From Verrucomicrobiota bacterium (GTDB taxonomy: Bacteria > Verrucomicrobiota > Verrucomicrobiia > Opitutales > Opitutaceae), in assembly GCA_016222805.1 (NCBI GenBank), contig JACRQG010000004.1:248001-312000 (forward strand): DNA of 64,000 nucleotides, given 5' to 3'. Position numbers and translations under genes: made by a program. How positions within the stretch are numbered: the stretch's first letter is position 1; each line of letters opens with the position of its first letter. This document shows positions 2,198-50,659 of the stretch, piece after piece. Under the pieces are notes generated by a model, which made no database searches, was not told the DNA's origin, and saw only the letters and a program-made list of their open reading frames with translations.

Positions 2198-2397
2198 GCT
2201 TTCCTCCATAGCCACCGCCGGCGCCGGCTCACGCGAAATCGGCGGAAGCCGGAGACTTGGGGGCTGACAGACGCTCGCTCGCGGCGCAGCGTGGGGCGTA
2301 CCGGCTGCCCCTCCATGAACCCAAGTTGCCGTTGTTCCTCCGAATTCCCCCGGGGCGCAGCGGGCCCGGGCGCGATCGTCCTCCCGCTGATTCTCCG

Positions 2398-5223: not shown

Positions 5224-6680
5224 ACACCCCGGTCTTCTACGATCACTTCGAACGCCACGCGCACGGTGAAGGTGTGAAGGGTCACAGCACCCACTACTGC
5301 CCGGGGTGCGGCCACGGCCTGGTGCACCGCGATCTCGCCGATGCGATTGGCGCCCTCGGCCTGAAGGACCGCACGGTGCTCGTGAGTCCCGTCGGCTGCG
5401 CGGTGTTCGCGTACTACTACTTCGACGTCGGCAATACCCAGGCGGCCCACGGTCGCGCGCCCGCGGTGGCCCTCGGCCACAAGCTCGCCAACCCCGATGC
5501 GATTGTCGTGAGCTACCAAGGCGACGGCGATCTCGCCGCCATCGGGCTCGCGGAGACCCTCTCGATCGCCCAGCTCGGGGTGCCGCTCACCGTGGTGTTC
5601 ATCAACAACGGAATCTACGGCATGACCGGAGGCCAGCTCGCCCCGACCACGCTGCTCGGCCAGAAGACCGCGACGAGCCCGGGTGGGCGCGATCCGACGA
5701 TGGGGCGTCCGCTGCGCGTGGCGGAGCTGATCGCCAGTCTCGACGGCCCGGTGTATGTGGAACGCGTGGCGCTGTTCGATCCCCGGCAGCGGGTGAAGGC
5801 CCGGCGGGCGATCGAGAAGGCGCTCCGCCTGCAGGCGGAAGGACGCGGCTATGCGTTTGTCGAGGTGCTCGCGGAGTGCCCGACGCACCTGAAGCTCACG
5901 CCGGAACTCGCCGAGGCCTGGGTGCGCGACCAGATGGTGCCGGTGTTTCCGCTCGGCGTGAAGAAGGATCTCGTTCCCGAACCGTGGTTCCACCGGGACG
6001 CGCCGGCCTACGACGTCGAGCGGGTGCTGGCGCTCGCCGGGGCCGAACCGGCGGGCGGGCGCGCGAGCGCCTCGCGAAAAGACGGGCGCGCGGGGGCGGC
6101 AGCGCCAAGGGATGTCGGGATCAAGCTGGCCGGAGCCGGCGGCGATGGCGCCCAGACGGCCGGCCTGCTGCTGACCCGGGCGGCAATCGCGGCCGGGTTC
6201 GATGCGACGCATATTCCGAGTTATGGTCCGGAAAGCCGGGGCGGCACCTCGTATGCCGACGTACATGTCGCCGACGACGAGGTCCTGAACCCGGCGGCGC
6301 CGGAGCCGGATCTCCTCGTGGCGTTCAATGCGCCGAGCCTGGCGAAGTTCGCGCCGGCGGTCGTGCCCGGCGGCATCATCCTCTACGACTCCTCGCTGGT
6401 GCCCCAGCCGCCGCCGCTCCCCGCGGGACGGCGTGTCCTGCCGGTGCCGTTCGCGGAGCTGGCCCGCCAGACCGGCCGGCCGGTGACCAAGAACATGGTG
6501 GCCCTGGGCGCCCTCCAGGAGGCCACCGACCTCCTGCCGCGCGACGGCCTGCTCCTCACGTTGCGGCAGCTGCTGAAGGACAAGCCGAACAGCCTGCCCG
6601 CCAACGAGGCCGCCCTGATCGCCGGGGCGCGGGCCGTGCGCGCCCAGGCCCGCGCGCCTCTCGGGGCCGACGGTCCTTGA
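5220..6680 (+). CDS. 2-oxoacid:ferredoxin oxidoreductase, fused beta and gamma subunits
   Basis: A 486-residue protein. Residues 1-280 form the thiamine-pyrophosphate-binding beta subunit: a CPGCGHG cluster-ligand motif near residue 28, and the TPP/Mg motif starting GDGD near 101 and ending in NNGIYGMTGGQ near 126. Residues about 298-480 form a gamma-subunit domain (KLAGAGGDGAQTAG; PSYGPESRGG). A low-complexity Ala/Arg/Gly linker near 275-297 joins them. Beta and gamma subunits are usually separate proteins, so this enzyme has been compacted to two polypeptides. Its ATG overlaps the stop of the alpha gene by four bases. Confidence 0.9.
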   Translation: MNTPVFYDHFERHAHGEGVKGHSTHYCPGCGHGLVHRDLADAIGALGLKDRTVLVSPVGCAVFAYYYFDVGNTQAAHGRAPAVALGHKLANPDAIVVSYQGDGDLAAIGLAETLSIAQLGVPLTVVFINNGIYGMTGGQLAPTTLLGQKTATSPGGRDPTMGRPLRVAELIASLDGPVYVERVALFDPRQRVKARRAIEKALRLQAEGRGYAFVEVLAECPTHLKLTPELAEAWVRDQMVPVFPLGVKKDLVPEPWFHRDAPAYDVERVLALAGAEPAGGRASASRKDGRAGAAAPRDVGIKLAGAGGDGAQTAGLLLTRAAIAAGFDATHIPSYGPESRGGTSYADVHVADDEVLNPAAPEPDLLVAFNAPSLAKFAPAVVPGGIILYDSSLVPQPPPLPAGRRVLPVPFAELARQTGRPVTKNMVALGALQEATDLLPRDGLLLTLRQLLKDKPNSLPANEAALIAGARAVRAQARAPLGADGP

Positions 6681-6687
6681 TTCGGAT

Positions 6688-6757
6688 GTAGCCGGGGTCG
6701 GTGACCCCGGCGATGGACGATCGCGGTCGACCGGCCGGCCTCGACGCGGCCGGCTAC
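6688..6757. repeat. Intergenic inverted repeat of the GTAGCCGG/CCGGCTAC type
   Basis: GTAGCCGG at 6688-6695 pairs with CCGGCTAC at 6750-6757. Inside it is a second palindrome around CCGGGGTCGGTGACCCCGG. The element sits between two genes. Related GCGGC(CGGC)TAC ends recur near 47823, 63811 and 63967, so it looks like a REP-type dispersed palindrome. Confidence 0.65.
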
Positions 6758-6840
6758 AACCACCGGAGGGAAAACAGATCTTCACCTGCGGTGCGAATTG
6801 GCTGTTGTCCGCGGGCAAGGAGGAGTAGCTCTGAAAGACA

Positions 6841-8319
6841 GTGAATGTCTTGCTCCTCTATCCGGAGTTTCCGGACACGTTCTGGAGTTTCAAACATGCG
6901 CTCAAGTTCGTGCGCAAGCGGGCCTCGTTGCCGCCCTTGGGCCTGCTGACGGTGGCGTCGTTGCTGCCGCAGGAATGGCAACAGCGCCTGGTGGACCTCA
7001 ATGTCCGCAAGCTGCTAGACGAGGATCTCGCCTGGGCGGACCTGGTGTGCATCAGCGCGATGATCGTGCAGCGAAGCTCCGCCGAGGCGTTGATCGCGCG
7101 GTGCCGGGCCGCCGGCAAGCGCATCATCGCGGGCGGGCCGTTGTTCACCAGCGAATACGCGCGCTTTCCCGACGTGGATTACCTCGTGCTGAACGAGGCG
7201 GAGATCACCCTGCCGGAGTTCCTGCGCGACTTCGCGGCAGGCCAGGCGAAGCGGATCTATGCGACGACGGAGTTTGCGGATCTACGCCAGTCTCCGGCGC
7301 CGCGGTGGGAGCTGGCGGAGCTCCGGCGGTACGCCTCGATGAGCCTGCAGTATTCCCGGGGCTGCCCTTTCGACTGCGAGTTCTGCGACGTTACGGTGAA
7401 GTTCGGCCACCGGCCGCGCACCAAGCCGGCGGCCCAGATCATCGCGGAGCTCGATGCGCTCTACCGGCTGGGGTGGCGCGGGGAGGTGTTCTTTGTCGAC
7501 GACAACCTCATCGGCAACAAACGGGCGCTGAAGAACGAGTTGCTGCCGGCCCTGATTGAATGGCAGCGCGGTCGCCGCGCCCTGTCGTTCTTCACCGAGG
7601 CCTCGATCAACCTGGCGGACGACCCCGAGCTGATGCGCCTGATGGTCGAGGCCGGCTTCAACGGCGTTTTCATCGGCATCGAGACGCCGGACGAGTCGAG
7701 CCTCGCGGAGTGCAGCAAGAAGCAGAACCAGCGCCGCGATCTGGTGGCGGATGTGAAGCGGATCCAGCGCGCGGGCCTGCAGGTGCAGGGGGGCTTCATC
7801 GTCGGCTTCGACAGCGACACGCCCTCCATTTTCCAGCGGCAGGTGGAGTTCATCCAGCGCAGTGGCATCGTCACGGCGATGGTGGGCCTGCTCAACGCGC
7901 TGCCGGACACCCGGCTGCACGCGCGGTTGCAACGGGAGGGGCGCCTGCTGCGCCAGTCGACCGGGGACAATGCGGATGGCACGACCAACTTCATCTCGCG
8001 GATGAATGCCGACGTGCTGCGCGAAGGCTACCAGCGCATCGTCCAGCACATCTATTCCCCGGGCCCGTACTACCAGCGGGTCCGCACCTTCCTGCGCGAG
8101 TACCAGCGGCCCAAGATTTCCGCGCCGCTCACCTGGCGGCATGTGCTCGCACTGGCCCACTCGACTGTGCGCCTGGGGATCATCGGCCGGGAACGCTTCC
8201 ATTACTGGCGGTTGCTGCTCTGGACGCTCTGCCACCGCCCGACCCTGGTGCAACTGGCGGTGACGCTGGCCATCTACGGCCACCACTTCCGGAAGTGCAG
8301 CGAGACACTGGTGGGGTAG
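6841..8319 (+). CDS. B12-binding radical SAM protein with DUF4070-like C-terminus
   Basis: A 492-residue protein. Residues 1-150 look like a cobalamin-binding Rossmann domain. A radical-SAM core follows with the cluster motif CPFDCEFC near residue 175. The C-terminal ~120 residues, rich in Arg, Tyr and Trp, match the DUF4070 class. The N-terminus (LLYPEFPDTFWSFKHAL) is typical of the family containing the hopanoid methylases HpnP and HpnR and many unassigned methyltransferases. It probably performs a radical methylation or rearrangement using cobalamin and a [4Fe-4S] cluster; the substrate is unknown. The start is GTG, with AAGGAGGAG about 14 bases upstream. No hopanoid genes are adjacent. 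Confidence 0.85.
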   Translation: MNVLLLYPEFPDTFWSFKHALKFVRKRASLPPLGLLTVASLLPQEWQQRLVDLNVRKLLDEDLAWADLVCISAMIVQRSSAEALIARCRAAGKRIIAGGPLFTSEYARFPDVDYLVLNEAEITLPEFLRDFAAGQAKRIYATTEFADLRQSPAPRWELAELRRYASMSLQYSRGCPFDCEFCDVTVKFGHRPRTKPAAQIIAELDALYRLGWRGEVFFVDDNLIGNKRALKNELLPALIEWQRGRRALSFFTEASINLADDPELMRLMVEAGFNGVFIGIETPDESSLAECSKKQNQRRDLVADVKRIQRAGLQVQGGFIVGFDSDTPSIFQRQVEFIQRSGIVTAMVGLLNALPDTRLHARLQREGRLLRQSTGDNADGTTNFISRMNADVLREGYQRIVQHIYSPGPYYQRVRTFLREYQRPKISAPLTWRHVLALAHSTVRLGIIGRERFHYWRLLLWTLCHRPTLVQLAVTLAIYGHHFRKCSETLVG

Positions 8320-8420
8320 GCGGCCGGAGGGCGCCGTCGGGCGCCCCGGTTGGAGCCGCTGTGGGTGTTTCGTCGTGACGCCGGGGCCGGGGTGTCGTTC
8401 GATCCCGGGCCCGAATTCTC

Positions 8421-9140
8421 ATGGAGTTTCCGACCACGCACTGGAGCCAGCTGGCGGCCGCGACGCTGCACGGCGACCAAGGGGCGTCCGGGGCGCTGGC
8501 GGAGTTCTACCGGCGCTACCGCGAGCCGGTGATCGCGTTCATTCGTCGGCGGGGTGGCGACCCGTCGCGGGCGGAGGATCTCGCCCACGACTTCTTCCTG
8601 CATCTGATCGAGAAGTCGACCCTGGCCCGGGCTGATGCGGCGAAGGGGCGGTTCCGGAGTTTTCTGCTGGGGACCCTGGTCCGTTTCCTCCGCGACGCCC
8701 GCGAGCGCGAGCAGGCAGCCAAGCGGGGGGGCGGCCTGCCGGTGGTGAGCCTGGATGCGGAGGCGGATTCTCCGCTGGGGCCGGCGGTCGAACCGGTCGC
8801 GGCGGCGGAGTTCGACCGGGAGTGGGCGGTCCAGGTGCTGGCCCTCGCCTGCGAGCGTCTGGACGCGGAGTTTCGGGAGAAGGATCGCGCGGCGGACTTT
8901 GCCGTCCTGCGCGCCTTTCTGCCAGGCGGGGTGGCGCCACCTCCCTACGAAGAAGGGGCCGCCCGGCTAGGGCTGACGCTGGGGGCGTTCAAGACCGAGG
9001 TCCACCGGCTGCGCCAGCGCTTTCGCGGCTGCCTGCGGGAGGAACTGGCCCGGACCGTGGCCTCGCCGGAGGAGATTGATGGCGAGATGGCGTACCTCGG
9101 ACGCGTGTTGCAGGGAGCGGCCGGCGGTCGCACGACCTGA
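8421..9140 (+). CDS. ECF-type RNA polymerase sigma factor
   Basis: A 239-residue sigma-70-family factor of the extracytoplasmic-function type. Region 2 is residues ~10-80 (ALAEFYRRYREPVIAFIRRR followed by AEDLAHDFFLHL). Region 4 near 175-205 has a helix-turn-helix (YEEGAARLGLTLGAFKTEVHR). The long inter-region linker and C-terminal extension fit the Planctomycetes/Verrucomicrobia subgroup whose genes lie beside Ser/Thr kinases. The kinase gene starts 42 bases downstream, and the two probably form a transcription unit that senses an envelope or developmental signal. No anti-sigma factor of the classical kind is present. Confidence 0.9.
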   Translation: MEFPTTHWSQLAAATLHGDQGASGALAEFYRRYREPVIAFIRRRGGDPSRAEDLAHDFFLHLIEKSTLARADAAKGRFRSFLLGTLVRFLRDAREREQAAKRGGGLPVVSLDAEADSPLGPAVEPVAAAEFDREWAVQVLALACERLDAEFREKDRAADFAVLRAFLPGGVAPPPYEEGAARLGLTLGAFKTEVHRLRQRFRGCLREELARTVASPEEIDGEMAYLGRVLQGAAGGRTT

Positions 9141-9182
9141 AACCCGCGGCGCGGTTTTCCTGAGAAGGAGTTGAACTTCCGC

Positions 9183-12100
9183 ATGCCCGCCCCTGTCCCG
9201 CCGCCGACCTGCCCCAGTTGCGGAGCCTCCCTTCCGGGAGGATCCCTGGTCGGGATCTGCGCGGCGTGCGCATGGAAGGAGATCGGCATCGAGGAGCCTG
9301 CCGCCCGATCGCCCGAGGTGTTGTTCACGGTGCCCGACCACGAGGTGCTGGCCGAAATCGCCCGGGGGGGCGGAGGCATTGTCTACCGGGCGCGGCAGCT
9401 CCAGCCGCGGCGCGACGTGGCGTTGAAGATGCTGCCGCCGGTGCTCCTGCCCTCTCGCGAGCTGCAGCATCGCTTCCGGCTGGAGGCGGAGACCATCGCC
9501 TCGCTGCATCATCCGGGGATTCTTCCGGTCCACACTGTCGGCGAGAAGGACGGTCTGCCGTACTTCACGATGAAACTCGCGGCCGGGGGCACGCTGACGG
9601 CGCGGCGCGAACAGTACCGCGGACGCTGGCGCGACATCGCGACCTTGATCGCCGGGCTGGCCGAAGCGGTGCAGCACGCCCATTCCCGCGGGGTGGTGCA
9701 CCGCGATTTGAAGCCGGGCAACGTGCTCTTCGACGACGAAGGCCGCGCCTATGTGAGCGATTTCGGCCTGGCAAAGTTCACGACCGCGGAGCCGTCGACC
9801 ACCCGTTCGCAGGCCGTGGTGGGTACTCCGGCGTACCTTGCTCCGGAGGTCCTGGCGGAGGGGGCGGGAGCCGCCACGACCGCGAGCGATGTCTACGGCC
9901 TGGGCGCCATCCTCTACGAACTGCTCGCCGGCCGGCCGCCGTTTGGCGGGGAGAATGTCGCGGAACTGCTGCGCCAGGTGGCGGACGAACTGCCGCGGGC
10001 CCCCTCCGGATTGGTGCGCGGCGTGCCCCGCGATCTGGAGGTCATCGCCCTGCGCTGCCTGGAGAAGGATCCGTCGAAACGCCTGCCCTCGGCGGCGGCG
10101 GTGGCGGAGGACCTGCGTTCCTGGCTCGGGCACCGGCCGATTCAGGCGCGGCCGGTGGGCGGGGGCGAACGGCTGGCCCGGTGGGCGCGGCGGAATCCGG
10201 CACTCGCGGGACTGACCGCGGTGCTGGCGATCGCGCTTCTCGGCGGGGCGGTGGTGCTGGAACGAAGCAACCGCCGGTTGCGGGGGGCGTTGAGCCAGAC
10301 GGAGGCGGCGGAGCGGCAGGCGCAGGAAAACCTGCACCGGGCGTTGCTGGATCAGGCGCGACTGCTGCGCACCAGCGGACAGCGCGGGCAGCGGCACGAG
10401 GCGCTGGAGGTGCTGGGCCGCGCGGCCGCGATCCGTCCTTCCCCGGAGGTGCGGCATGAGGTCGCCGCGGCGCTGGCGCGGACGGACTTGCGCTTCGAGC
10501 GGCCGCTGCGGGCGTATTTTGCCAGCGAGTTGGCGACCGTCGAGTTCGCCCCGGACTTTCAGTCGTACCTCAGCGCCACCGGCCAGCCGGACTTCGTGCG
10601 GCTCGACAGCCGGGATGGCAGCATCGTGCGGCGCTACCGTCCGGAGGGCGCCGGCCAGCCGCTCGCGTTCACGTTCAGCGGCGACAGCCGGAGGTTCGCG
10701 GTCACGTTTGCCGATCGCCGAATCGAGTGTTGGGCGGTCGACGGCGGGAAGCCGCTCTGGGTCGTGCCGCCCCGCGGCCAGCTGAGCGTGGCGGTGGCGC
10801 TGCACCCGCAGGAGCCGGCCTGCGCCTGGGCTGACGAGAAGGGGGCGGTTCGGGTGAGGGACCTGATCGCCGGCGGAGAACGCGTGCTGGTGCCTCCGGG
10901 AGAGCGGGTCGTGCGGCTCCGGTATTCGCCCGACGGAAGGAGGCTGGCGGTGCTGCGTGCGCGCGAGTTTGTGGTGGTCGACGCCGTTTCCGGCGACGTG
11001 CGCTGGAACCGCGAGGGCCGGCCGCTGGCCGTGGATCCGGCGTGGAGCGGCGACGGCCGGTGGCTTGCGGTCGCGGAGGCGACCCGCGGCGAGATTGAAG
11101 TGCTGGCCGGCGAGACGGGGCGGGTCGTGCGCGTGCTGGCGGGCGGAGGAGAGCCGCCACAGTTGCTGGAGTTTGTGCCGGGACGCCCGCGGCTGGCGTC
11201 CATCTCGCGTAACTCGACCTTGCGGTTGTGGGAGGTGCTGAGTGGCGACCTGCTGTTCCAGACCGGAATGCCGCCGCGCACCCTGGCGTTTTCGCCGGAC
11301 GGGCGATGGATGGCCGGGGCCCGCCGCTGGCTGGAGATTGGCGTGTTTGTCTGGGCGGAGGAGGAGGTCTTGCGGGAGTTCCGGGGCGAAGGGTTGACGC
11401 GGGAACGCGGCAACGAGCTGGCCGTGAGCCCGGATGGCCGCTGGCTGGCAACGTCCGATGCCCGGGAGGTGCGCGTCTGGGACGCGGTGCGGGGCGAGGA
11501 GTGTGCGCGCGTCGCGGTGACGGGTGCCAACTGGACCTCGGTTCAGTTCGACCCGCGGGGCGGCCGGCTGCTGTACAGTACGATGAACCGGGGAGTCCTG
11601 GCGCGTCCGCTGGTGGAGGTCGCCGCCGCGGGCGGGGGAACCACCCTGCAACTCGGCGCCGAGGTGCCGCTGGGGCCCCATCGCCACGGCCGGCTGCTGG
11701 GGTTTGGCGACAACGGCGATTGGTACATCGAACGGGAGGCGATCGAGCGGGTGGTGGTCTGGCCGCAGGGCGATCCGACCCGTGAACGCCCGTTGGCAGA
11801 GAGCCGGCGGTACGATCGCCCCACGATCAGCCGGGACGGGCAGTATGTCGCCACGATGGGTTATCCGGAGGTGAAGGTGCGGGTGACGCACCTGGCTTCC
11901 GGTGCCCCTCCCGTCATTCTCCCGGTCCGGCATCACGCCGGAGCGGCGTTCGCGCCGGATGGCCGTTGGTTGGTGACCGGGACGGACACGGAGTTCCAGA
12001 CTTGGACCCTGCCGGGCCTTAAGGCCGGGCCGCGCTGGGAACGGCCCCTCGACGGCAGTCGTTGGGGTACGCCGGTGTTCTCGCCGGATGGTCGGTGGCT

Positions 12101-12317
12101 GGCCTGTGATCGTCCGATGGGGGAGGTGGAGGTGCGTGACACACGGGATTGGAGCGAACAGGTGCGCCTGATCCCTCCGGTGCGTGTCGACATCAACAGC
12201 GTGGCTTGGAGCCGCGAGGGCGATCGGTTGTACGTGCTGGGCACCGGCCACCGGGTCTTCGAGTGGAATCTCTCCGCCTTTCGGCGCGAACTTGCCGCGC
12301 GGAAGCTGGCATGGTGA
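9183..12317 (+). CDS. Membrane-anchored Ser/Thr protein kinase with WD40-like repeats
   Basis: A 1044-residue protein. A short zinc-ribbon-like start (CPSCGASLPGG...CAAC) is followed by a Hanks-type kinase domain (~50-310). It has the glycine loop EIARGGGGIVYRA, catalytic HRDLKPGN (~173), DFGLAKF (~192) and GTPAYLAPE. A transmembrane helix lies near 340-356, then a coiled-coil-like linker. From ~436 to the end there are repeated beta-propeller blades (PDGRWLA-type motifs recur). The second Gly position reads GGGGIVY where GGMG is common. I choose ATG 9183 because AAGGAG is 12 bases upstream; a TTG at 9171 touches that motif. It is paired with the sigma factor upstream. Confidence 0.92.
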   Translation: MPAPVPPPTCPSCGASLPGGSLVGICAACAWKEIGIEEPAARSPEVLFTVPDHEVLAEIARGGGGIVYRARQLQPRRDVALKMLPPVLLPSRELQHRFRLEAETIASLHHPGILPVHTVGEKDGLPYFTMKLAAGGTLTARREQYRGRWRDIATLIAGLAEAVQHAHSRGVVHRDLKPGNVLFDDEGRAYVSDFGLAKFTTAEPSTTRSQAVVGTPAYLAPEVLAEGAGAATTASDVYGLGAILYELLAGRPPFGGENVAELLRQVADELPRAPSGLVRGVPRDLEVIALRCLEKDPSKRLPSAAAVAEDLRSWLGHRPIQARPVGGGERLARWARRNPALAGLTAVLAIALLGGAVVLERSNRRLRGALSQTEAAERQAQENLHRALLDQARLLRTSGQRGQRHEALEVLGRAAAIRPSPEVRHEVAAALARTDLRFERPLRAYFASELATVEFAPDFQSYLSATGQPDFVRLDSRDGSIVRRYRPEGAGQPLAFTFSGDSRRFAVTFADRRIECWAVDGGKPLWVVPPRGQLSVAVALHPQEPACAWADEKGAVRVRDLIAGGERVLVPPGERVVRLRYSPDGRRLAVLRAREFVVVDAVSGDVRWNREGRPLAVDPAWSGDGRWLAVAEATRGEIEVLAGETGRVVRVLAGGGEPPQLLEFVPGRPRLASISRNSTLRLWEVLSGDLLFQTGMPPRTLAFSPDGRWMAGARRWLEIGVFVWAEEEVLREFRGEGLTRERGNELAVSPDGRWLATSDAREVRVWDAVRGEECARVAVTGANWTSVQFDPRGGRLLYSTMNRGVLARPLVEVAAAGGGTTLQLGAEVPLGPHRHGRLLGFGDNGDWYIEREAIERVVVWPQGDPTRERPLAESRRYDRPTISRDGQYVATMGYPEVKVRVTHLASGAPPVILPVRHHAGAAFAPDGRWLVTGTDTEFQTWTLPGLKAGPRWERPLDGSRWGTPVFSPDGRWLACDRPMGEVEVRDTRDWSEQVRLIPPVRVDINSVAWSREGDRLYVLGTGHRVFEWNLSAFRRELAARKLAW

Positions 12318-12458
12318 GCCGCCCGGCGGGTGCAGGGCGCCCGGTCTTGGAAATCGGCATGCCAGGCAGGTGCGGGGCCTCCGGGAGGTTTCGCGCCGTC
12401 GGGCGCGAATTTTCTGAAACTCCGGCACCGGGTTTCCCTGAGAAGGAAACGTCGCACC

Positions 12459-37966: not shown

Positions 37967-38722
37967 TCAGCGACCGGAGCAGCGGCGGCGCAACGCGCCC
38001 AGCAGCGCGACGGCAGCGCTGAGCAGGCCCAGGTTGTAGACGGTCTCCGGAACCTCGTGGGCGTGAGTCTCGCCCTGGGCGTCGTGGGAGAAAGGCGCAA
38101 AATGCAGCGAGTAGTTCGTGCTGTTCTTCTTTTGCTGGATGATCTCGTCGTAGAGATCGAAGTGCACCGCGAATCCGGCGTTCAGCCCACTCGTGTCCAC
38201 GAGGAACGAATGGTAGAGGAGGCCCCCGTTGGCGGCGGTCTGGAGCCCGCCTGGATCGTCCATGGAGTTGTACACCACGGCGCGGTCGTTCGCGCCAAAG
38301 TAGAACTGCACTTCAGCGAACCACGTGGCGTAGATCCCGTGGGTGGGGAGCGTCGGAAAGATGTTGGAATTGTCGACCGGCGGGCCGCCGTACTGCATGT
38401 TGCTGGCCGCCCCGGTGTAGGAATAAGTCGTGCCGTTGATGCTAAAGGAGCCGAAGTCCGCCGTTGGGGCGCCCCCGCTCGTCTCGCCGACTTTCGGGAC
38501 GATGGCCGCGGAAATGTAGAACTTGTCGAAGTTCTCCCCCACGGGAACATTGGTCGTCGGATCGAGCAGGGCGACCAGCACGAACGGGTCGTTGGTCGCA
38601 TAGACGGTTTCGTCGCCGCCGCCCACGTACGTTCCCCCGAGCACGTCGAGTTGCAGCCGCGGCACGGCGAACAGCGCCGACGGGAACACCAGGGAGAATG
38701 CCAGAAGGACGAGCTTTTTCAT
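37967..38722 (-). CDS. Secreted protein with VPE-type C-terminal sorting signal
   Basis: A 251-residue exported protein. Signal peptide MKKLVLLAFSLVFPSALFA; a beta-rich body with Gly/Asp-rich loops (DVLGGTYVGGGDETVYA; DKFYISAAIVPK); C-terminus VPETVYNLGLLSAAVALLGA followed by RRRCSGR, a variant of the VPDSG/PEP-CTERM sorting signal. Related exported proteins usually carry a choice-of-anchor-like domain; catalytic residues are not seen. I start at 38722 because it gives a standard signal peptide; an ATG at 38746 is also in frame. Confidence 0.8.
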   Translation of the reverse strand: MKKLVLLAFSLVFPSALFAVPRLQLDVLGGTYVGGGDETVYATNDPFVLVALLDPTTNVPVGENFDKFYISAAIVPKVGETSGGAPTADFGSFSINGTTYSYTGAASNMQYGGPPVDNSNIFPTLPTHGIYATWFAEVQFYFGANDRAVVYNSMDDPGGLQTAANGGLLYHSFLVDTSGLNAGFAVHFDLYDEIIQQKKNSTNYSLHFAPFSHDAQGETHAHEVPETVYNLGLLSAAVALLGALRRRCSGR

Positions 38723-38851
38723 CGAAATCGTGCGCAGAAATAGCATGGCATGTGCCCGGGATCGAAGGGCACCTGGGACCGTCTCCGGTCGTCAGCCTAG
38801 GCGCTGGATTCCAGTGGCTTGGGGCACTACGTAGCGCGCGATTTTTTCAGG

Positions 38852-41063: not shown

Positions 41064-41609
41064 TCAGCGACCGCGGTGGAGCAGCGTGGCGACCCCGGTT
41101 CGCACCGCGGGCAGGTGGCTCTTCAGGTAATGGCGCAGCCAGTAGGCATAGCGCCGCGGGCGGCGACGGATGTCGGCCTCCAGTTTCGCGAGATCCTGGC
41201 GGGCCACGCGGGCGACTTCGGCCGGATTCGGGTCGACCTGGGCTGGCACGGGGCCGAAGTAGACGTAGACGATTTCGTTTTCGGTGAGGCCGCCGGGAAG
41301 GGAGGTCCGGTAGGCGGCGCGGAAAGCGTAACGCAACCGGGTGGTCGCACCCAGTTCCTCGGCGAGGCGGCGGCGCGCGGCCTGGAGCGTTCGTTCGCCC
41401 GGGCGGGGATGGCCGCAGCACGAGTTGGCCCAGAGGCCGGCGGAGTGGTACTTGGCCCGGCTGCGCTGTTGCAGCAGCAGGCGACCCTCGCGGTCGACGA
41501 GGAAGATGGAAAACGCCCGATGGCGCAGGCCTTCGCGGTGGACGCGCAGTTTCTCGGCGCGCCCCACGGCGCGATTGCAGGAATCGACGAGGATCAACTC
41601 TTCGGGCAT
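41064..41609 (-). CDS. idi: Isopentenyl-diphosphate delta-isomerase, type I
   Basis: A 181-residue NUDIX-fold enzyme that interconverts isopentenyl and dimethylallyl diphosphate, the two building blocks of isoprenoids. Active-site segments are intact: HRAFSIFLVD, WANSCCGHPRPGE (catalytic Cys and metal-site His) and LTENEIVYVYFG (catalytic and metal Glu). Length is normal. Its 3' end converges with cstA and it is divergent from the ebo-type genes that follow; the nearby UbiA-type prenyltransferase makes an isoprenoid link plausible. Confidence 0.92.
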   Translation of the reverse strand: MPEELILVDSCNRAVGRAEKLRVHREGLRHRAFSIFLVDREGRLLLQQRSRAKYHSAGLWANSCCGHPRPGERTLQAARRRLAEELGATTRLRYAFRAAYRTSLPGGLTENEIVYVYFGPVPAQVDPNPAEVARVARQDLAKLEADIRRRPRRYAYWLRHYLKSHLPAVRTGVATLLHRGR

Positions 41610-41824
41610 GGGCTCGGCAGGCTGGCAAGACGACCGGGGTGTGGCGAGGTGACACTGGGACGGCGCGGCCCGCCGGGATCACGTCTGCGGACGGGCTGCC
41701 TCAGGGATTGCTTTGACGCCAACGGGGCGCAACGTCCTCCTCGTTTCCCTCCGTCGACGTGGCCGCCACCCGCTCCCATCGCAGCTCCGGACAATTGCCG
41801 GCATCGCCTCAACCCAAGGCGATT

Positions 41825-42094
41825 GTGGATCATGGATTCGTGCCGGTCCGAGCGAAGTTGATCGAAGTCGCGGCTTTTCTTGATCGGGTCGAGCGGTACG
41901 CCATCGCTGACGACTTTCGTTGTACGGCGCTGCGGTCGGCGGCCGCGGTGTTGATCGATGGCCGGCCCGAGCGGGCGCGCCGCATCCTGGAAGCGTTGAG
42001 TGATCCCACGACCAAACCTGAGGCCAAGTCGTCCGGAAAAGCGGCGCTGGGGGCCTGGCAGCGACCGGGCAGGAAGAAGGGAAGCGGGAGGTGA
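41825..42094 (+). CDS. Small conserved-looking hypothetical protein
   Basis: An 89-residue protein with no signal peptide or membrane helix. The ordered part ([18 protein letters not shown], then [27 protein letters not shown]) looks like a compact helical bundle, and the tail is basic. I recall similar short proteins in Opitutaceae genomes but have no function for them. GTG 41825 is preferred because AAGG lies five bases upstream; a GTG at 41759 is also open. It precedes the ebo-type genes by 100 bp on the same strand and may be part of that unit. Confidence 0.55.
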
Positions 42095-42194
42095 GGGGCT
42101 GGAGCATTCCGCTTCCGCGTCCTCCTCTATTCGCCCGGGCTCCCCGCTTCTCCCGCCCTTCCACCCGCCGATTCTCTTCCCTCTCCGTTCTCCC

Positions 42195-43013
42195 ATGCGC
42201 TACATCGAACCGCACGGCCACATGGTGAGCCGCACGACCGACGACTACCAGGCGATGGTCACGGCGGGGTGCGAGGCCGTGTGCGAGCCGGCCTTCTGGG
42301 CGGGTTTCGACCGCGGTTCGGTCGACGGATTCCGCGACTACTTCCGGCAGTTGACCGAATATGAGCCGGCGCGGGCGGCGAAATTCCTGCTGCCGCACTA
42401 CTGCTGGCTTTGCCTGAACCCCAAGGAGTCCGAGGATCTGGTGCTGGCGCGCGAGGTCCTGGCGATGATCCCGGAGTTCCTCGGGCGGCCCAACGTGCTC
42501 GGCATCGGCGAAATCGGGCTCAACCGCAACACCCGCAACGAACTCGCCGTCCTCGAGCAGCACGTGGAACTGGCCGTGCGCCACGATCAGTTGATCCTGG
42601 TCCACACCCCGCACCTGGAGGACAAGCTCAAGGGAACCAACCTGATCCTCGCGGTGCTCGGCGCGCACCGGGGGGTGCGGCCGGAGCGGGTAATCATTGA
42701 TCACGTCGAGGAGCATACGATCGCGCGGGTCCTCGATCGCGGCTACTGGGCGGGCATCACCTTGTATCCGGATTCCAAGTCGTCGCCGCCGCGGGCGGTG
42801 GATATGCTCGAGATCTGCGGGCGCGAGCGCATCTGGCTGAATTCCGCCTGCGACTGGGGCGTGAGTGATCCCCTCGCGGTGCCGAAGACGGCGCTGGAGA
42901 TGCGCCGCCGCGGCCATGACGAGGACTTTGTCGATGCGGTCTTCTACCGCAATCCGGTGCGCTTCCTCTCGCAATGTCCCCGGTTTGTGATCGGGGCCGG
43001 ACGGCCGGAGTGA
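42195..43013 (+). CDS. eboB: TatD-like metal-dependent hydrolase (EboB-type)
   Basis: A 272-residue amidohydrolase-fold protein. Metal-binding signatures of TatD-type enzymes are visible: EPHGHMVSR at the N-terminus (His7, His9), [31 protein letters not shown] and a late NSACDWG. The pattern closely follows the hydrolase of cyanobacterial ebo clusters, where the genes are required for export or assembly of secondary metabolites such as scytonemin. The metal and substrate are not known. A C/T-rich leader (42170-42194) precedes the ATG, and eboE begins 33 bases downstream. Confidence 0.82.
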
Positions 43014-43046
43014 AGTTTCCCTCCCGCGGCGGCAGAACCTGTGCGG

Positions 43047-44264
43047 ATGAAGCTCGGACCTGATCTCCATCTGGCGTATTGCACCAACGTCCATCGCGGC
43101 GAGACGTGGGCGGAGACGCTGGCGGCGCTGGAGCGGCACACGTTGCCGGTGCGCCGGCGGGTGGCGGCCGGTCGGCCGTACGCCATCGGACTGCGGCTCG
43201 GCCAGCGGGCGGCGGCGGAGCTCGCCCACGAAGGCACGCTGGCGGAGTTCCAGCGCTGGCTGGAGCGGCACGACTGCTACGTTTTCACGATCAACGGATT
43301 TCCCTTCGGCAACTTCCATGGCACACGCGTGAAGGAACAGGTGTATGCGCCGGATTGGTCCACGCCGGAGCGCGTTGCGTACACCCTGCAACTCTTCGAA
43401 CTGCTGGCGCGGTTCCTGCCGGCCGGCGTTTCCGGCAGCGTCAGCACGGTGCCGGCGTCGTTCAAGGGATTCGTGGCAGCAGACCCCGGCCGGCGCCCGG
43501 CGCTCTACGCGCGGTTGACCGAATGTGCCCTGAAGATCGCCGACCTGGCTGATCGCACCGGTCGCGATCTGCACCTCGGCCTGGAACCCGAGCCGCTGTG
43601 TGTACTGGAGACAACCGCCGAGACGGTGGCCTTTTTCGCCGAATGGGCCACGCGGGAGCCCGCCGTGGAGCGCGATCACCTCCGCCGAGTGGTGGGGGTG
43701 AACTACGATTGCTGCCACCTGGCCGTTGAATTCGAAACGCCCCGGAGGGCGCTTGATCGGCTCGAGGCCGCCGGCCTGCGGCTCAGCAAGCTCCACCTCA
43801 GCTCGGCGCTACGGGTGCGGCCGGATGCGGCCGGGCGCGCGGCACTCGCGGCCTTTGTCGAGCCCGTCTACCTGCACCAGGTCGTCGCGGGCTGCGCGAG
43901 TGAACCGACGGTACGGCGGCGCTGGGTCGACCTGCCGGAGGCGCTGGCCGATCCCGGGCCAATGGCGGAGAACGAGGAATGGCGCGTGCACTTTCATGTG
44001 CCGCTGCACGCCGCGCCGGGTGAACCGTTTGCCGACACCCGCGACCACCTCCTTGGCGCCCTGGACTGGCTGCGGGATCATCCGTCGGCCTGTTCGCACC
44101 TCGAGATGGAGACCTACACGTGGGAAGTGCTCCCGCCGGCCCTGCGGCTGCCCGTGGAGGAGCAGTTGGTGCGCGAATACGCCTGGACGCTGCGGGCCCT
44201 CGCGGAGCGGGGACTGGCGTCGCCCGCGGAGGTAGTCGCGATCCCGGGGGAGCCGTCGCGGTGA
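43047..44264 (+). CDS. eboE: Metabolite traffic protein EboE (sugar-isomerase-like TIM barrel)
   Basis: A 405-residue protein. The N-terminal segment LAYCTNVHRGETWAETL and the middle YVFTINGFPFGNFHGTRVKEQVYAPDW are typical of EboE. Further TIM-barrel metal-site-like elements follow: LEPEPLCVLET, GVNYDCCHLAVEFE and SKLHLSSAL. It belongs to the xylose-isomerase-like barrel superfamily, but the reaction is unknown. ATG 43047 is chosen; GTG 43041 is two codons upstream. Its stop overlaps the GTG of eboC, so the two are translationally coupled. Confidence 0.85.
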   Translation: MKLGPDLHLAYCTNVHRGETWAETLAALERHTLPVRRRVAAGRPYAIGLRLGQRAAAELAHEGTLAEFQRWLERHDCYVFTINGFPFGNFHGTRVKEQVYAPDWSTPERVAYTLQLFELLARFLPAGVSGSVSTVPASFKGFVAADPGRRPALYARLTECALKIADLADRTGRDLHLGLEPEPLCVLETTAETVAFFAEWATREPAVERDHLRRVVGVNYDCCHLAVEFETPRRALDRLEAAGLRLSKLHLSSALRVRPDAAGRAALAAFVEPVYLHQVVAGCASEPTVRRRWVDLPEALADPGPMAENEEWRVHFHVPLHAAPGEPFADTRDHLLGALDWLRDHPSACSHLEMETYTWEVLPPALRLPVEEQLVREYAWTLRALAERGLASPAEVVAIPGEPSR

Positions 44265-45007
44265 ACTCGACCGGGCCGGGACGGGCGGAGCAGCGGTGGC
44301 GCGCGTGGTGGGATCTGGCCCGGGCCGGCAACCTGCCGTCGGTGGCGAGCAACGTGACGGCGGCGCTGGTGTTGGCGGGGGCTGGCCGGGAGGCGGCGGT
44401 GTCGCCGGGCCTGCTGGCGCTCGCCGTGGTGGCCGGTGGCCTCACTTACGCCGGTGGTGCGACGTTGAACGATGTGGCCGATGCGGCCTTCGATGCCCGG
44501 CATCGTCCGGAGCGGGCCATCCCGCGCGGTGTGATTTCGCGCGGTGCGGCGGCGGCGGTCGGCGCGGGCGAGATGATCGTGGGCCTGGGCCTGCTGGTGG
44601 CGGCCGGGGCGGGCGTGGGATGGGTGCTGGCTTTGGCGGCGACAATCCTCGCGTACGACTGGCTGCACAAGCGCTGGTCCGGGTCGATCCTCCTCATGGC
44701 GGGCTGCCGGGTGCTGCTGGGCTTGTCGGTAGCGAGTTTGGGAGGGAAGATTGCCGGGTGGCCGTTGCTGATCTGGCGGGCGGTGCTGTTTTCCTATATC
44801 GCGGGATTGAGTTGGCTGGCGCGGCGGGAATACCGGCCCGGTGCGCCCGCGGCGGCGATCGGCCGCCAGGTCGGACGGTTGCTGGCCTTCATTCCGTTGG
44901 TGGATGCGGTGGCGCTCGCGGTCTGCGGAGCGTGGGGTTGGGCCATCGCGTGTGCGCTGGCGGTGCCGGCCGGACGGCTGGCCCAGCGACTCGCGGCATC
45001 GACCTAA
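44261..45007 (+). CDS. eboC: UbiA-family prenyltransferase (EboC-type)
   Basis: A 248-residue integral-membrane protein with ~7 helices. It has both prenyl-diphosphate-binding motifs: NDVADAAFD near residue 70 and YDWLHK near 132. It would attach an isoprenoid chain to an aromatic or other acceptor. At ~250 residues it is short for UbiA (usually ~290) but contains both motifs. The GTG start overlaps the eboE stop. Together with eboB and eboE, and with idi across a divergent gap, it forms a reduced ebo cluster lacking visible eboA, eboD and eboF here. Confidence 0.85.
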   Translation: MNSTGPGRAEQRWRAWWDLARAGNLPSVASNVTAALVLAGAGREAAVSPGLLALAVVAGGLTYAGGATLNDVADAAFDARHRPERAIPRGVISRGAAAAVGAGEMIVGLGLLVAAGAGVGWVLALAATILAYDWLHKRWSGSILLMAGCRVLLGLSVASLGGKIAGWPLLIWRAVLFSYIAGLSWLARREYRPGAPAAAIGRQVGRLLAFIPLVDAVALAVCGAWGWAIACALAVPAGRLAQRLAAST

Positions 45008-45193: not shown

Positions 45194-45274
45194 CCTGTGG
45201 GCGGGGCGAAGTCGCCCCGCACGGACCGGGCGCCGCTCCGGAAGGGCGCGGGGCGGAGTCGCCCCGCCCACAGG
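45194..45274. repeat. Double GGGCGGGGC palindrome
   Basis: The outer 14-bp arms at 45194-45207 (CCTGTGGGCGGGGC) and 45261-45274 are perfect reverse complements, and each contains its own inner GGGGCGA/GCCCC-type hairpin. One arm is the unit also seen at 26593 and 63769. It occupies the 391-bp gap between eboC and the monophosphatase gene, which otherwise holds nothing recognisable. Confidence 0.65.
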
Positions 45275-45398: not shown

Positions 45399-46220
45399 TC
45401 ACGCTCCGCCCAGCCCACCCGCGTCCCGCAGCACCTGTAGCATGGCTTCGTGCAGGCGCCCGTTGCTGGCGACATAGCGACCGCGATCCTGGCGCTGGGG
45501 ACGCGGTTCGCCCCGGTAATCGGAGATCCGGCCACCCGCTTCCTGCACGAGGAGGATCCCGGCCATCACGTCGTAGGTCTTCAGGTCCTTTTCCCAGTAG
45601 CCGTCGAGCCGGCCGGCGGCGACCCAGGCGAGATCGAGCGCGGCGGAACCGAGTCGGCGCTCGCCCCGGATGTGCTGGAGGAAGGCGCCCCATTCCTTGA
45701 GGTTGTTGTCGGGGTTAAGGTGCTTGTCGTAGGGAAAACCGGTGGACACGAGGGCGTCGTTCAACGCCGCCGTATCCGAAACGTGCAGGACCTGACCGTT
45801 GAGGTGGGCGCCTGCGCCCCGCGCGGCGGAAAAGAGTTCATCGCGGCAGGGGTCGTAAATCACGCCGAGCAGGGGCGAGCGGTCCGGAGTCGCGAGCGCG
45901 ATGCTCGTGCAGAAATGCGGCAGCCGGCCGGCGAAGTTCACGGTGCCGTCGATCGGATCGACAAACCAGTGCAGCGGAGCCTGGTCCGCGGGAGCGCCCT
46001 GGCCTCCGCCTTCCTCGCCGACGATGTGATGGTCGGGAAAACGTGCGACCAATTCCCGCACGAGGAAGGCCTCCGCCTCGGTGTCGGCTGCGGTCACGAC
46101 ATCCGAGCGCGTGGACTTGCGGGCCGAGATCGGGATCGGCGCCGCGAAATGGCGGCGGAGGATTTCGCCTGCCGCCCGCGCGAGGGCGGCCACCTCCGGC
46201 AGGATTTCGATGGGTGCCAT
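45399..46220 (-). CDS. suhB: Inositol monophosphatase family protein
   Basis: A 273-residue metal-dependent phosphatase. Family motifs are VGEEGG (metal-binding Glu), VDPIDGTVNFAGRLPHF (metal-site Asp residues) and LDLAWVAAGRLDGYWEKDLKTYDVMAG (third metal-site region). The normal substrate is inositol-1-phosphate, though related enzymes act on NADP or other sugar phosphates. Length is typical. It is divergently arranged with the dehydrogenase gene at 46352, 131 bp away. Confidence 0.88.
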   Translation of the reverse strand: MAPIEILPEVAALARAAGEILRRHFAAPIPISARKSTRSDVVTAADTEAEAFLVRELVARFPDHHIVGEEGGGQGAPADQAPLHWFVDPIDGTVNFAGRLPHFCTSIALATPDRSPLLGVIYDPCRDELFSAARGAGAHLNGQVLHVSDTAALNDALVSTGFPYDKHLNPDNNLKEWGAFLQHIRGERRLGSAALDLAWVAAGRLDGYWEKDLKTYDVMAGILLVQEAGGRISDYRGEPRPQRQDRGRYVASNGRLHEAMLQVLRDAGGLGGA

Positions 46221-47920: not shown

Positions 47921-50659
47921 TCAGGTCGTCAGTCCCAGCAGGCCACGGGTGAGTTGAAAGTCGACTGCGCCGAGTGTCTCGGCAGCCACGGTGCGATCGT
48001 GTTGGACGGTGGCCGCGAGGAGCAGGGACAGCGTCAATGCATCCACAGCCGCGTCGCCGGTCAGGAAGGCGTCGATGTCGCTGGCAGCCACGCGACCGCG
48101 TTGAGCGGCTTCGGCCACCTGGAGCACGGGCAGCATGGGATGTCCCTGGCGGGCGTGATCCGCCACGAGGGTCAGGGCGAGGTGGGCGCCGCAGCCACAC
48201 AGTCCGGTGAGGTTTTCGACCCAGTGATCGGTTTCAGTCGCGACGACATGGAGGCCGGGCCGGCAGAGAGGTTCGCCGTAGGCGAGGGTGGCGCGCGGTG
48301 CGGTCGCGCCGAGGAGCGAAGCACGGAAGGGTCCTTCGGCCAGCAAGGAGTCACTTTCCGCCAAGAGGATCGTGCCTCCTCCTGAAAGGACCGTCCGGGC
48401 CAGGGTCGCGAGCGTGCGGGCCGTGCCGGGCTGGACTGGGGCGGCGGTTTGGAGTGCGATCGACAGGCCGGCGAGCGGCGTGTTTTCCCGCGCTGCGGGA
48501 GGCAGAAGGCCGACGCGGGCTTCGAACCAAGCCTCGACCTTGGCCAAGGCCCGGTCGATGCCGCCGTCGAGTTGGACACTCGCCCAACCGAACTGGGCCG
48601 TGTTCACGCCGGCCGCGGCGAGGTGGTGGCGGATGACGTCGTTGGGCACCTTTTCGCAGCCGTGCTCCAGGAGCAGGGCCGCGGCGACGTTGGGGTGGGT
48701 GAGATAACCGCGGTAGGTGCGGTGGAGCAGTTGGTACATCGTCTCCCCGCCGAATCCGCAGCCTTCCGTGTGGGTGAAGCCCACCACGCGGGTCAGGCCG
48801 AAGGCGCGACCGAGGCCCCGGGCGTTCATCCGCTCCGCGGCGAGTCGGGCGATCTGCGTGGAGCAAAGGCTCGTGGGCAGCACCAGGCCGATGCGCTCCG
48901 TGGCGGGACGACCGTTCGCGGAGCGGGAAAGAGGCACCGAAGGGAGGACAGGCTCGGCGGGACTGTCCTCCGGCCCGGGACGTGGCGCGGGGAGAACCGG
49001 CAACGGGGTGCCATCCGGCGGGGTGCGCGCGCGCAGGGCGGGCAGGCGAGAGGTGTCGGTCTGCCGCCAGTTGCGCCAGATCGACACCTGCGAATGACCG
49101 GCGTGTTCGCCGCGCGTCCGTTGGCCTGACGCCGTGGCGATCAGCACATCAAAACTGTCGGCGGCCACGGCTTCCATCGCTTCTCCGTCGAGGTAACGGC
49201 CCGCGTTGATGTCCATCTCCCGGCTCAGGAGTTGGTGGCGCCGGGTAGTGGTCGTGATCTTGAGGGTGGGAACAAACGGGAAGTTCGTGATCGAGCCGTT
49301 GCCGGTGACAAAGAGGATGAGATTGCAGCCGGCTCCGACCTGGCCCGCGATGCCCTCGAGGTCGTTGCCCGGCCCGTTCATGAACGTGAAGCCCGGATCC
49401 GTCAGGTCGCGCAGCGGCTGGGCATAGTCGATGACGGTCTCGAGGCGCGTGCGCGGGTCCTTCTTGTGGACGGCGCCGAGCGACTTGAGGGCGATGTTGT
49501 AGAGGCCGCGAAAACGGTTGCCGGCGGAGGGGTTGCTCTCGGCGGTGAGCCCGTGCCAGGAGAGTTTCTCGCGAAACTGCTCGAGTTTGCCGAGGAACGC
49601 CTTGGCGGTCGCCAGATCGCGCACGTTCTTCAGCATGTACGTCTCGGCGCCCATCGATTCATCCGTCTCTGTCAGGACGCCGGTGGCGCCGTGGCGGATT
49701 GCCTCATGCACCAGGGCCCCGGCCAAGGGGTTGCCGGAGACGCCGGAAAAGGCGTCGGAGCCGCCGCATTGGAGGGCAATGCGAAGGCCCGAGAGTGGTT
49801 CGTCGGTGCGGCGCTGGGCGGCGACCTCCGGCAGCCAGGAGCGGATCAGGCGTTCGCCCTCTGTCAGCGCGGCGGCCAGGCCGCGATCGATGCTGAGGAA
49901 AGCATGGGGCACCTCGTCGATGGGGTAGCGACCCTCGCGCAGGAATGCCATCAGCCGGGCGTTGGAGATCGGCTCCACGCCGTAGTCAACGGCGAGCACC
50001 GCGCCGACGTTGGGGTGCACGAGAAAGCCTGCCAGGGTCCGCAGCACCTCGGGGGAGTTGTTGGGTTCATGCGGATCCCCTCCCTCGGTGTGAGCGAGGG
50101 GGACGATGCCATCGATGCCGGGATGCAGGCGGGCGAGCGGCTGCAGGCGGGCCGCCAGTTGGCGGACGAAACTCGCCGTGCGCGACGAGGTGCCAACCAG
50201 GGCGATGAAGTTGCGCGTGCCGACGCCGCGATTTCCCGGTCGTCGGTAACCCGCAAAGGTACGGGCAGGGTCCGCCCGGGGGACGGCGGGTGCGGGCCGG
50301 AAGGAGGTCTCGTCGAGGTGAAAGGGCGCGAGGCAGTCCTCGAAGTTGGCCAGGGCAGGGAGCCGCGCTCCGCCGGTATCCCGCATCGCGAGGGCCTCGA
50401 GCATCGCTCGGTTGCTCACATAGTCGCCAGGGGCGATGCTGGAGAGCGCCCGGCCAAACGGCAGGCCCCAGGACTGTAGTGGTTCACCCGCGGCGATGGG
50501 CGCCACGGCGAAGCGATGGCCTTCGAGCACGGTGTGCGGCAACGCGCGCGGTCCGGTCGGCAGGTCGATGACGGTGCCGGCTTCGAGGCGTTGGATGGCG
50601 ATGGCGACGTTGTCGCCGGGTGCGGGCAGACGGGAGACGGCGTGAAGCGGCAGGGGCAC
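47921..50659 (-). CDS. Double-length UxaA-type dehydratase-like protein
   Basis: A 912-residue protein related to altronate/galactarate dehydratase. An N-terminal SAF-like domain (~10-100) is followed by one full UxaA region (~130-520) with RNFIALVGTSSRT, HTEGGDPHEPNNSPEVLRTLAG and LTETDESMGAETYML. Then comes a second, diverged UxaA-like region (~600-900) with FTHTEGCGFGGETMYQLLHR and LEHGCEKVPND. Ordinary UxaA has one such unit in ~500 residues, so this is a duplication or fusion. The second unit keeps Cys-containing motifs that could ligate an iron-sulphur cluster. Sugar-acid dehydration is likely; the exact substrate is unknown. Start GTG. Confidence 0.8.
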   Translation of the reverse strand: MPLPLHAVSRLPAPGDNVAIAIQRLEAGTVIDLPTGPRALPHTVLEGHRFAVAPIAAGEPLQSWGLPFGRALSSIAPGDYVSNRAMLEALAMRDTGGARLPALANFEDCLAPFHLDETSFRPAPAVPRADPARTFAGYRRPGNRGVGTRNFIALVGTSSRTASFVRQLAARLQPLARLHPGIDGIVPLAHTEGGDPHEPNNSPEVLRTLAGFLVHPNVGAVLAVDYGVEPISNARLMAFLREGRYPIDEVPHAFLSIDRGLAAALTEGERLIRSWLPEVAAQRRTDEPLSGLRIALQCGGSDAFSGVSGNPLAGALVHEAIRHGATGVLTETDESMGAETYMLKNVRDLATAKAFLGKLEQFREKLSWHGLTAESNPSAGNRFRGLYNIALKSLGAVHKKDPRTRLETVIDYAQPLRDLTDPGFTFMNGPGNDLEGIAGQVGAGCNLILFVTGNGSITNFPFVPTLKITTTTRRHQLLSREMDINAGRYLDGEAMEAVAADSFDVLIATASGQRTRGEHAGHSQVSIWRNWRQTDTSRLPALRARTPPDGTPLPVLPAPRPGPEDSPAEPVLPSVPLSRSANGRPATERIGLVLPTSLCSTQIARLAAERMNARGLGRAFGLTRVVGFTHTEGCGFGGETMYQLLHRTYRGYLTHPNVAAALLLEHGCEKVPNDVIRHHLAAAGVNTAQFGWASVQLDGGIDRALAKVEAWFEARVGLLPPAARENTPLAGLSIALQTAAPVQPGTARTLATLARTVLSGGGTILLAESDSLLAEGPFRASLLGATAPRATLAYGEPLCRPGLHVVATETDHWVENLTGLCGCGAHLALTLVADHARQGHPMLPVLQVAEAAQRGRVAASDIDAFLTGDAAVDALTLSLLLAATVQHDRTVAAETLGAVDFQLTRGLLGLTT

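Follow-up and report, generated by a model that had tools for sequence, protein, structure and literature searches.

Two types of ebo operon have been described. The EboA-type operon of Bacteroidetes and Cyanobacteria, which is associated with scytonemin in Nostoc punctiforme, encodes EboA together with the five enzymes EboB, EboC, EboD, EboE and EboF (PMC6282210). In the parts of that paper cited here, Klicki et al. (2018) report that each ebo deletion tested in Nostoc (eboD not among them) keeps the scytonemin monomer in the cytoplasm, propose a carrier composed of a cyclitol and a lipid, and mention the presence of ebo genes in the EDB cluster of Pseudomonas fluorescens, mutants of which become edible to nematodes. 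In the alternative operon type, described by Yurchenko et al. (2016; PMC5133447), eboA is replaced by a gene named eboG. The holders named in the parts of that paper cited here are Deinococcus, Truepera, Herpetosiphon, Acidobacteriaceae KBS 96 and Thermithiobacillus; an isoprenoid-cyclitol product is proposed, and the mutual exclusion of eboG and eboA, the bipartition of EboB and a negative HHalign result are already stated. We analyzed the ebo genes of an Opitutaceae bacterium (Verrucomicrobiota), starting from a stretch of 64,000 nucleotides, hereafter the window, which covers positions 248001-312000 of contig C25 in a 7.9 Mb genome of 51 contigs. The genome was found to carry the rarer, already known operon variant, in a phylum unmentioned in the literature searched; here its layout is split and its EboC is trimmed. 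We consider it probable (roughly 0.6) that these genes form a complete EboG-type ebo operon in two parts, which would make a lipid-linked cyclitol carrier by the mechanism proposed below.

Identity and arrangement of the ebo genes

The genes concerned are listed below, with positions in the window unless contig C25 is named.

41064-41609, minus strand: idi, type 1 isopentenyl-diphosphate isomerase (IDI; Nudix), divergent neighbor; TIGR02150 and NF002995
41759-42094, plus strand: eboG, 111 aa, GTG start, in the position of eboA; assigned by profile and conserved slot
42195-43013, plus strand: eboB, TatD-like metallo-dependent hydrolase, 272 aa; assigned by identity to EboB of plasmid clusters
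43047-44264, plus strand: eboE, TIM-barrel protein, 405 aa; NF035939
44261-45007, plus strand: eboC-type gene, prenyltransferase-like membrane protein of the UbiA family (248 aa, a short form); best model NF035940, below its cut-off, with fitting position, motif and fold
C25:132810-134003: eboD, sugar phosphate cyclase, outside the window on its own contig
C25:133996-135369: eboF, phosphodiesterase family PF01663, outside the window on its own contig

The identity of the ebo genes is nearly certain overall, eboC being the more tentative assignment. EboE scores 444.5 bits against NF035939, for which the cut-off is 250, and EboB shares 43-59% identity, over nearly its full length, with its counterparts in five named plasmid clusters. 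EboB also has the positions that we take to be the TatD metal ligands, namely HxH, Glu, His, His and Asp. The divergent idi passes both of its models (TIGR02150, 111.5 bits with a cut-off of 105.8; NF002995, 152 bits with a cut-off of 127). The first-pass annotation of the window had described EboB-, EboE- and EboC-type genes as contiguous, with eboE and eboC coupled and idi divergent just upstream, and this is borne out by models, identities and coordinates, including an eboE/eboC overlap of 4 nt (GTGA). The small gene ahead of eboB had been read from position 41825 as an unknown protein; its start is very likely the GTG at 41759, the N-terminal extension being common to several relatives, and its product is EboG, the known replacement of EboA.

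With regard to the remaining genes, the cluster had been regarded as reduced, as eboA, eboD and eboF were not seen in it. Searches of the whole genome upheld this for eboA, whose best match reached 12.5 bits (cut-off 50), but not for eboD and eboF, which were found on the window's own contig 154 kb away, with EboG filling the EboA slot; the reduced-cluster reading was therefore dropped. The sugar phosphate cyclase domain occurs in two copies, one on contig C28 and one at C25:133086-133421. The phosphodiesterase domain occurs in many copies, of which the second best, at C25:134011-135108, lies directly beside the C25 cyclase copy. The two genes overlap by 8 nt and lie upstream, with 154,389 nt between the end of eboF and the start of eboG. 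The genome thus holds two physical clusters, eboG-eboB-eboE-eboC and eboD-eboF. EboF matches PF01663 with 197.6 bits (cut-off 23) and shares 48-56% identity with its counterparts in four named plasmid clusters. EboD is 40-48% identical to EboD of the Azospirillum, Aureibacter and Deinococcus clusters, and the eboD of this genome is 64-85% identical to the copies located behind eboC in related loci.

Of 467 confirmed loci, the 80 best formed the set in which related loci were compared, and all locus counts are therefore biased towards close relatives. Fifty-one loci of this set are of the Opitutae type. In 40 of them (40 of the 46 that can be judged) eboD lies downstream of eboC; three of these 40 have a gap of 2.1 to 3.8 kb before eboD, and in two no eboF was seen. 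Six loci show the split layout, with at least 6 kb behind eboC that lacks eboD, while three are too short to judge eboD and two lack eboC. Both sides were opened for three of the six split loci (genomes G168, G192 and G205), and in each of them eboD and eboF share one contig and eboG, eboB, eboE and eboC another. Given that joined and split layouts both occur in the genus of the window and in one other genus of the family, the detachment of eboD-eboF probably arose more than once.

Directly behind eboC, where eboD would be expected, two GC-rich palindromic motifs of the GGGGCGAAGTCGCCCC type are present at 45203-45265, and the patterns tried for this motif gave no other match in the window. 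An inositol-monophosphatase gene adjoining the operon (45399-46220) was discarded as a candidate member after a tblastn search of the 80 related loci at 1e-4 had yielded nothing.

EboG in place of EboA

In 45 of the 51 Opitutae-type loci eboG lies directly upstream of eboB; five others have no room for it and one has no eboB. A profile built from the Verrucomicrobia members matches both Deinococcus small proteins (5.6e-25 and 2.3e-18), and our identification of the small protein as EboG rests on these opened Deinococcus clusters rather than on the accession list of PMC5133447. Among 200 genomes of the family, the EboG profile was matched in 56, namely in 54 of the 55 with EboE versus two of the 145 without it. 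In a class-level sample of 113 genomes, EboG was found in 29, comprising 28 of the 31 with strong EboE (>300 bits) and one of the 82 others; when weak EboE matches are included, 28 genomes have both proteins, 16 EboE only, one EboG only and 68 neither. By genus, all 17 genera with EboG are among the 19 with strong EboE. These co-occurrence statistics, like those for idi and EboG in the family, treat related genomes as independent. In the class sample eboG is often far from eboE and near eboB, a whole or partial eboB lying at most 1.5 kb downstream in 13 of the 15 loci fetched.

No EboA exceeded the cut-off of 50 bits in the 113 class genomes, where two matches reached 18.6 and 19.8 bits. EboA was found in five of 387 genomes of the phylum, all of one other family. 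In these five loci EboA lies beside an EboB that is 40-41% identical to that of the window, and the fetched stretches yielded no EboG. A tree of 31 EboB sequences separates the EboG type (20 sequences, three phyla) from the EboA type (nine sequences), with a split of 100/100, and places the EboB of the window on the EboG side. The two sequences that have neither EboA nor EboG as a partner group with the EboA type, and one of them, from Halobaculum, is on a long branch flagged by the program.

EboG was rejected as a homolog of EboA: hmmsearch with filters off gave a best E-value of 0.058 against seven EboA and 0.23 against twelve, and the hhalign probability was at most 0.2. No NCBIfam model matched EboG. 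Its Pfam matches, in a set of 23 members, were too weak to use: TPR_4 in five members (best E 0.092), TPR_19 in one (E 0.011), HHH_8 in two (best E 0.052) and three further families in one member each. The structural model of EboG shows three helices at low confidence (pLDDT 63.7).

The possibility that EboG is an undescribed family was ruled out by its description in PMC5133447. The occurrence, exclusion and EboB-split results given here repeat and extend those of that paper and are not new ideas; what is added are two EboG-bearing phyla, Verrucomicrobiota and Gemmatimonadota. The main text of PMC5133447 contains no word beginning with Verrucomicrobi-, Opitut- or Gemmatimon-, its supplementary table lying outside this word search. 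In open PubMed Central, no paper pairs 'ebo operon' with 'Verrucomicrobi', and, by its listing, PMC5133447 alone concerns the gene EboG. The main texts of PMC6282210 and PMC9235831 contain no word beginning with Verrucomicrobi-, EboG or inositol.

A shortened EboC

The best NCBIfam model for the EboC of the window is the EboC model NF035940, at 71.5 bits with a cut-off of 250, so that the assignment is tentative, although position, motif and fold fit it. The short form is widespread: 48 of the 56 ORFs examined in relatives encode proteins of 227-262 aa, shorter by about 45 residues. It is not universal in the family, as two loci from other genera (L119 and L120) have forms of 287 and 296 aa. 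From alignment and hydropathy, the stretch absent from short EboC is apparently a two-helix hairpin. The EboC of the window is also shorter than the archaeal digeranylgeranylglyceryl phosphate synthase of the UbiA superfamily (7bpu, 6m31). All 32 aligned EboC sequences share an unchanged NDxxDxxxD motif, and the structural model of EboC keeps the UbiA fold.

Distribution of the operon and association with idi

EboE was found in 55 and EboD in 57 of the 200 family genomes, EboD being present in all 55 genomes with EboE and in two without it. In 46 of the 55, EboD lies within 8 kb of EboE on the same strand; in two, including the genome of the window, it lies farther off on the same contig, and in seven on another contig. 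The operon is patchy: most genomes of the family sample lack EboE, among them three of the 11 sampled from the genus of the window, and one of these three has EboD. In loci L050-L080, for the most part from non-Opitutae Verrucomicrobia, EboE is often on its own or accompanied by eboC or eboD only. This recalls the non-clustering reported for Planctomycetes in the cited part of PMC5133447.

The suggestion that idi goes with the ebo genes holds as a tendency. A divergent idi adjoins the operon in 22 of the 39 Opitutae-type loci with room for it, preceded by cstA in 10 of 28. Strong idi matches (at least 105 bits; 36 over the cut-off) occur in 37 of the 200 family genomes, and EboE is found in 32 of these 37, against 23 of the 163 without strong idi. 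In 21 of the 32 genomes with both, idi lies within 1.5 kb of eboG, and in 11 it is elsewhere or on another contig; since 21 of the 32 are neighbors, shared inheritance of the block explains much of the association. The link between idi and the operon is thus moderate, and it is plausible that IDI feeds EboC with prenyl diphosphate.

Comparison with plasmid-borne and previously described clusters

EboB was found in 51 plasmid records and the small protein, with a Deinococcus query, in three of them: two Deinococcus and one Gemmatirosa, which also occupy the top three ranks for EboB. No EboB match was found among phage records. Twelve plasmid regions were opened; the gene upstream of eboB is the small gene in three, an EboA-domain gene in seven and neither in two. 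At the expected place of EboD, an inositol-3-phosphate synthase is found in four of the twelve clusters (two Streptomyces, Halobaculum and Gemmatirosa, the last identified by a Pfam test), although an EboD elsewhere is possible in these. Six others have an EboD-like gene annotated as 3-dehydroquinate synthase, and in two the stretch is too short. As inositol-3-phosphate synthase is another cyclitol-forming enzyme, its occurrence at this place favors a cyclitol head group and a prenylated-cyclitol product. No paper in open PubMed Central pairs EboE with inositol.

The genome of the window resembles the EboG-type operon, as described in the cited part of PMC5133447, in having EboB, an EboC-type protein, EboD, EboE and EboF with EboG instead of EboA, and its EboB groups with those of Deinococcus. 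It differs in gene order: both Deinococcus records show eboD, the small gene, eboB, eboE, eboC and eboF, whereas most Opitutae-type loci show eboG-eboB-eboE-eboC-eboD-eboF, from which eboD-eboF is detached in this genome. Locus L022 of Opitutaceae bacterium EW11, whose record is not labeled a MAG, has all six genes contiguous in the Opitutae order. Opitutae-type loci further differ by their short EboC and an often adjacent idi. The same five enzymes are shared with the EboA-type operon of PMC6282210. In contrast to that operon, the window has EboG, unrelated to EboA by profile, and no scytonemin-type neighbors were seen in it. The Streptomyces, Halobaculum and Gemmatirosa plasmid clusters likewise combine EboB, EboF and a UbiA protein, with EboA in Streptomyces and EboG in Gemmatirosa, but at the expected place of EboD they show inositol-3-phosphate synthase together with a protein of the sugar isomerase type.

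Three of these plasmids merit separate mention. The unannotated record of Gemmatirosa kalamazoonensis plasmid 2 (L153) holds an EboG-type cluster at 6390-12438, in which the expected places of EboD and EboE are occupied by an inositol-phosphate synthase and a protein of the sugar isomerase type. The archaeal Halobaculum salinum plasmid (L157) encodes EboB, UbiA, an EboF-type phosphodiesterase, inositol-3-phosphate synthase and two sugar isomerases, with no EboA or EboE annotated and no match to the EboG profile. In the plasmid of the actinobacterium Streptomyces sp. NBC_00028 (L158), a gene annotated as ScyD/ScyE family (1880-3079) adjoins an EboA-type cluster.

Proposed function and alternative explanations

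In the mechanism that we propose, EboD would form a cyclitol, probably from sedoheptulose 7-phosphate, which EboE and EboB would modify. EboC would then join a prenyl chain to the cyclitol at the membrane, IDI would contribute to the supply of prenyl diphosphate, and EboF would take off a phosphate or pyrophosphate group. EboG, like EboA, may be a small accessory protein whose partner is most likely EboB. The resulting lipid-linked cyclitol could serve as a carrier or cofactor that moves a metabolite to the periplasm, as for the scytonemin monomer in Nostoc. The mechanism is a reasoned guess that we share with the literature; the sequence of its reactions, what is carried and how EboG takes part are inferred. 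The earlier suggestion of a prenylated metabolite is compatible with these results, as is a prenylated carrier; no metabolite pathway was evident among the neighboring genes looked at.

Several observations weigh against a complete carrier-forming operon. The ebo literature cited here names no ebo product. EboD passes the NCBI model PRK06203, labeled '3-dehydroquinate synthase', with 512.5 bits (cut-off 333). It does, however, fail the AroB model TIGR01357 (201 versus 305), and a separate DHQ_synthase copy is present on C28. In five listed alignments with solved dehydroquinate synthases, an Asp of EboD, three residues before a conserved His, corresponds to Asn, a position which, we assume, distinguishes other cyclases. 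EboC is both short and well under the NCBI EboC cut-off, and its prenyl-transfer activity could therefore be changed or lost. EboG is missing from 16 of the 44 class genomes in which EboE was matched at any strength (three with strong EboE and all 13 with matches below 300 bits). Finally, 23 of the 55 EboE genomes have no idi at 105 bits, so that idi is not an obligate part.

The state of EboC bears on the view that the product is a soluble cofactor or secondary metabolite rather than a lipid carrier, with the EboC of this clade acting as a membrane anchor or transporter-like part after loss or change of prenyl transfer. Such a view would account for the missing 45 residues and the low score, and it finds a further argument in UbiA-297, an EboC that, once produced in E. 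coli, adds farnesyl groups to quinoline derivatives (PMC9235831, in the part cited here), because of which acceptors other than cyclitols are possible. The invariant NDxxDxxxD motif, the retained UbiA fold and the tendency of idi to accompany the operon all speak against this view, and we regard a soluble product as rather unlikely. Chance adjacency of a TatD nuclease, a sugar isomerase and a UbiA-type quinone enzyme, all with housekeeping roles, is extremely improbable: Pfam does recognize EboB as TatD_DNase (29.7 bits) and EboC as UbiA (47.1 bits), but both matches are weak, EboE exceeds its specific cut-off, the nearest relatives of EboB belong to ebo clusters, and the gene order is kept across dozens of loci. 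The ebo assignment of the first-pass annotation and its expectation of conserved synteny thus both stand. Its picture of a cluster that has lost eboA, eboD and eboF, and now makes or exports a simpler prenylated metabolite with EboB, EboE and EboC only, matches what the window itself contains apart from the small gene; with eboD and eboF side by side on the same contig, eboD closely resembling the copies behind eboC in relatives, and EboG in the EboA slot, it is very improbable.

A complete, two-part EboG-type operon is therefore preferred. Because of the short EboC and the clusters with inositol-phosphate synthase where EboD is expected, one may also tentatively imagine that the cut-down, probably eight-helix EboC of a large clade of Opitutaceae operons uses another prenyl donor or acceptor, that the ebo product is a varied set of prenylated cyclitol lipids, differing in cyclitol head and chain, which act as general carriers in membranes, and that EboA and EboG are interchangeable adaptors of EboB; we find this broader version doubtful.

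Other genes of the window

Two further genes, both on the minus strand, were noted. Along the 912-aa protein encoded at 47924-50659, two stretches match a galactarate dehydratase model (176.7 bits against a cut-off of 730.9), as would be seen in a fusion of two UxaA/GarD-like units. The gene at 37967-38746 encodes a choice-of-anchor N protein (NF038141, 122.7 bits, cut-off 40) with a tail that, by eye, resembles a C-terminal sorting signal.

Implications

This locus illustrates that part-clusters can mislead, as an apparently reduced operon is complete but split, with EboA replaced by EboG. Roughly one in four of the Verrucomicrobiota class genomes sampled is thereby credited with EboG-type ebo genes, EboG having been found in 29 of the 113. 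The short natural EboC and the clusters with inositol-phosphate synthase in the expected place of EboD provide two testable handles on the chemistry of the system.

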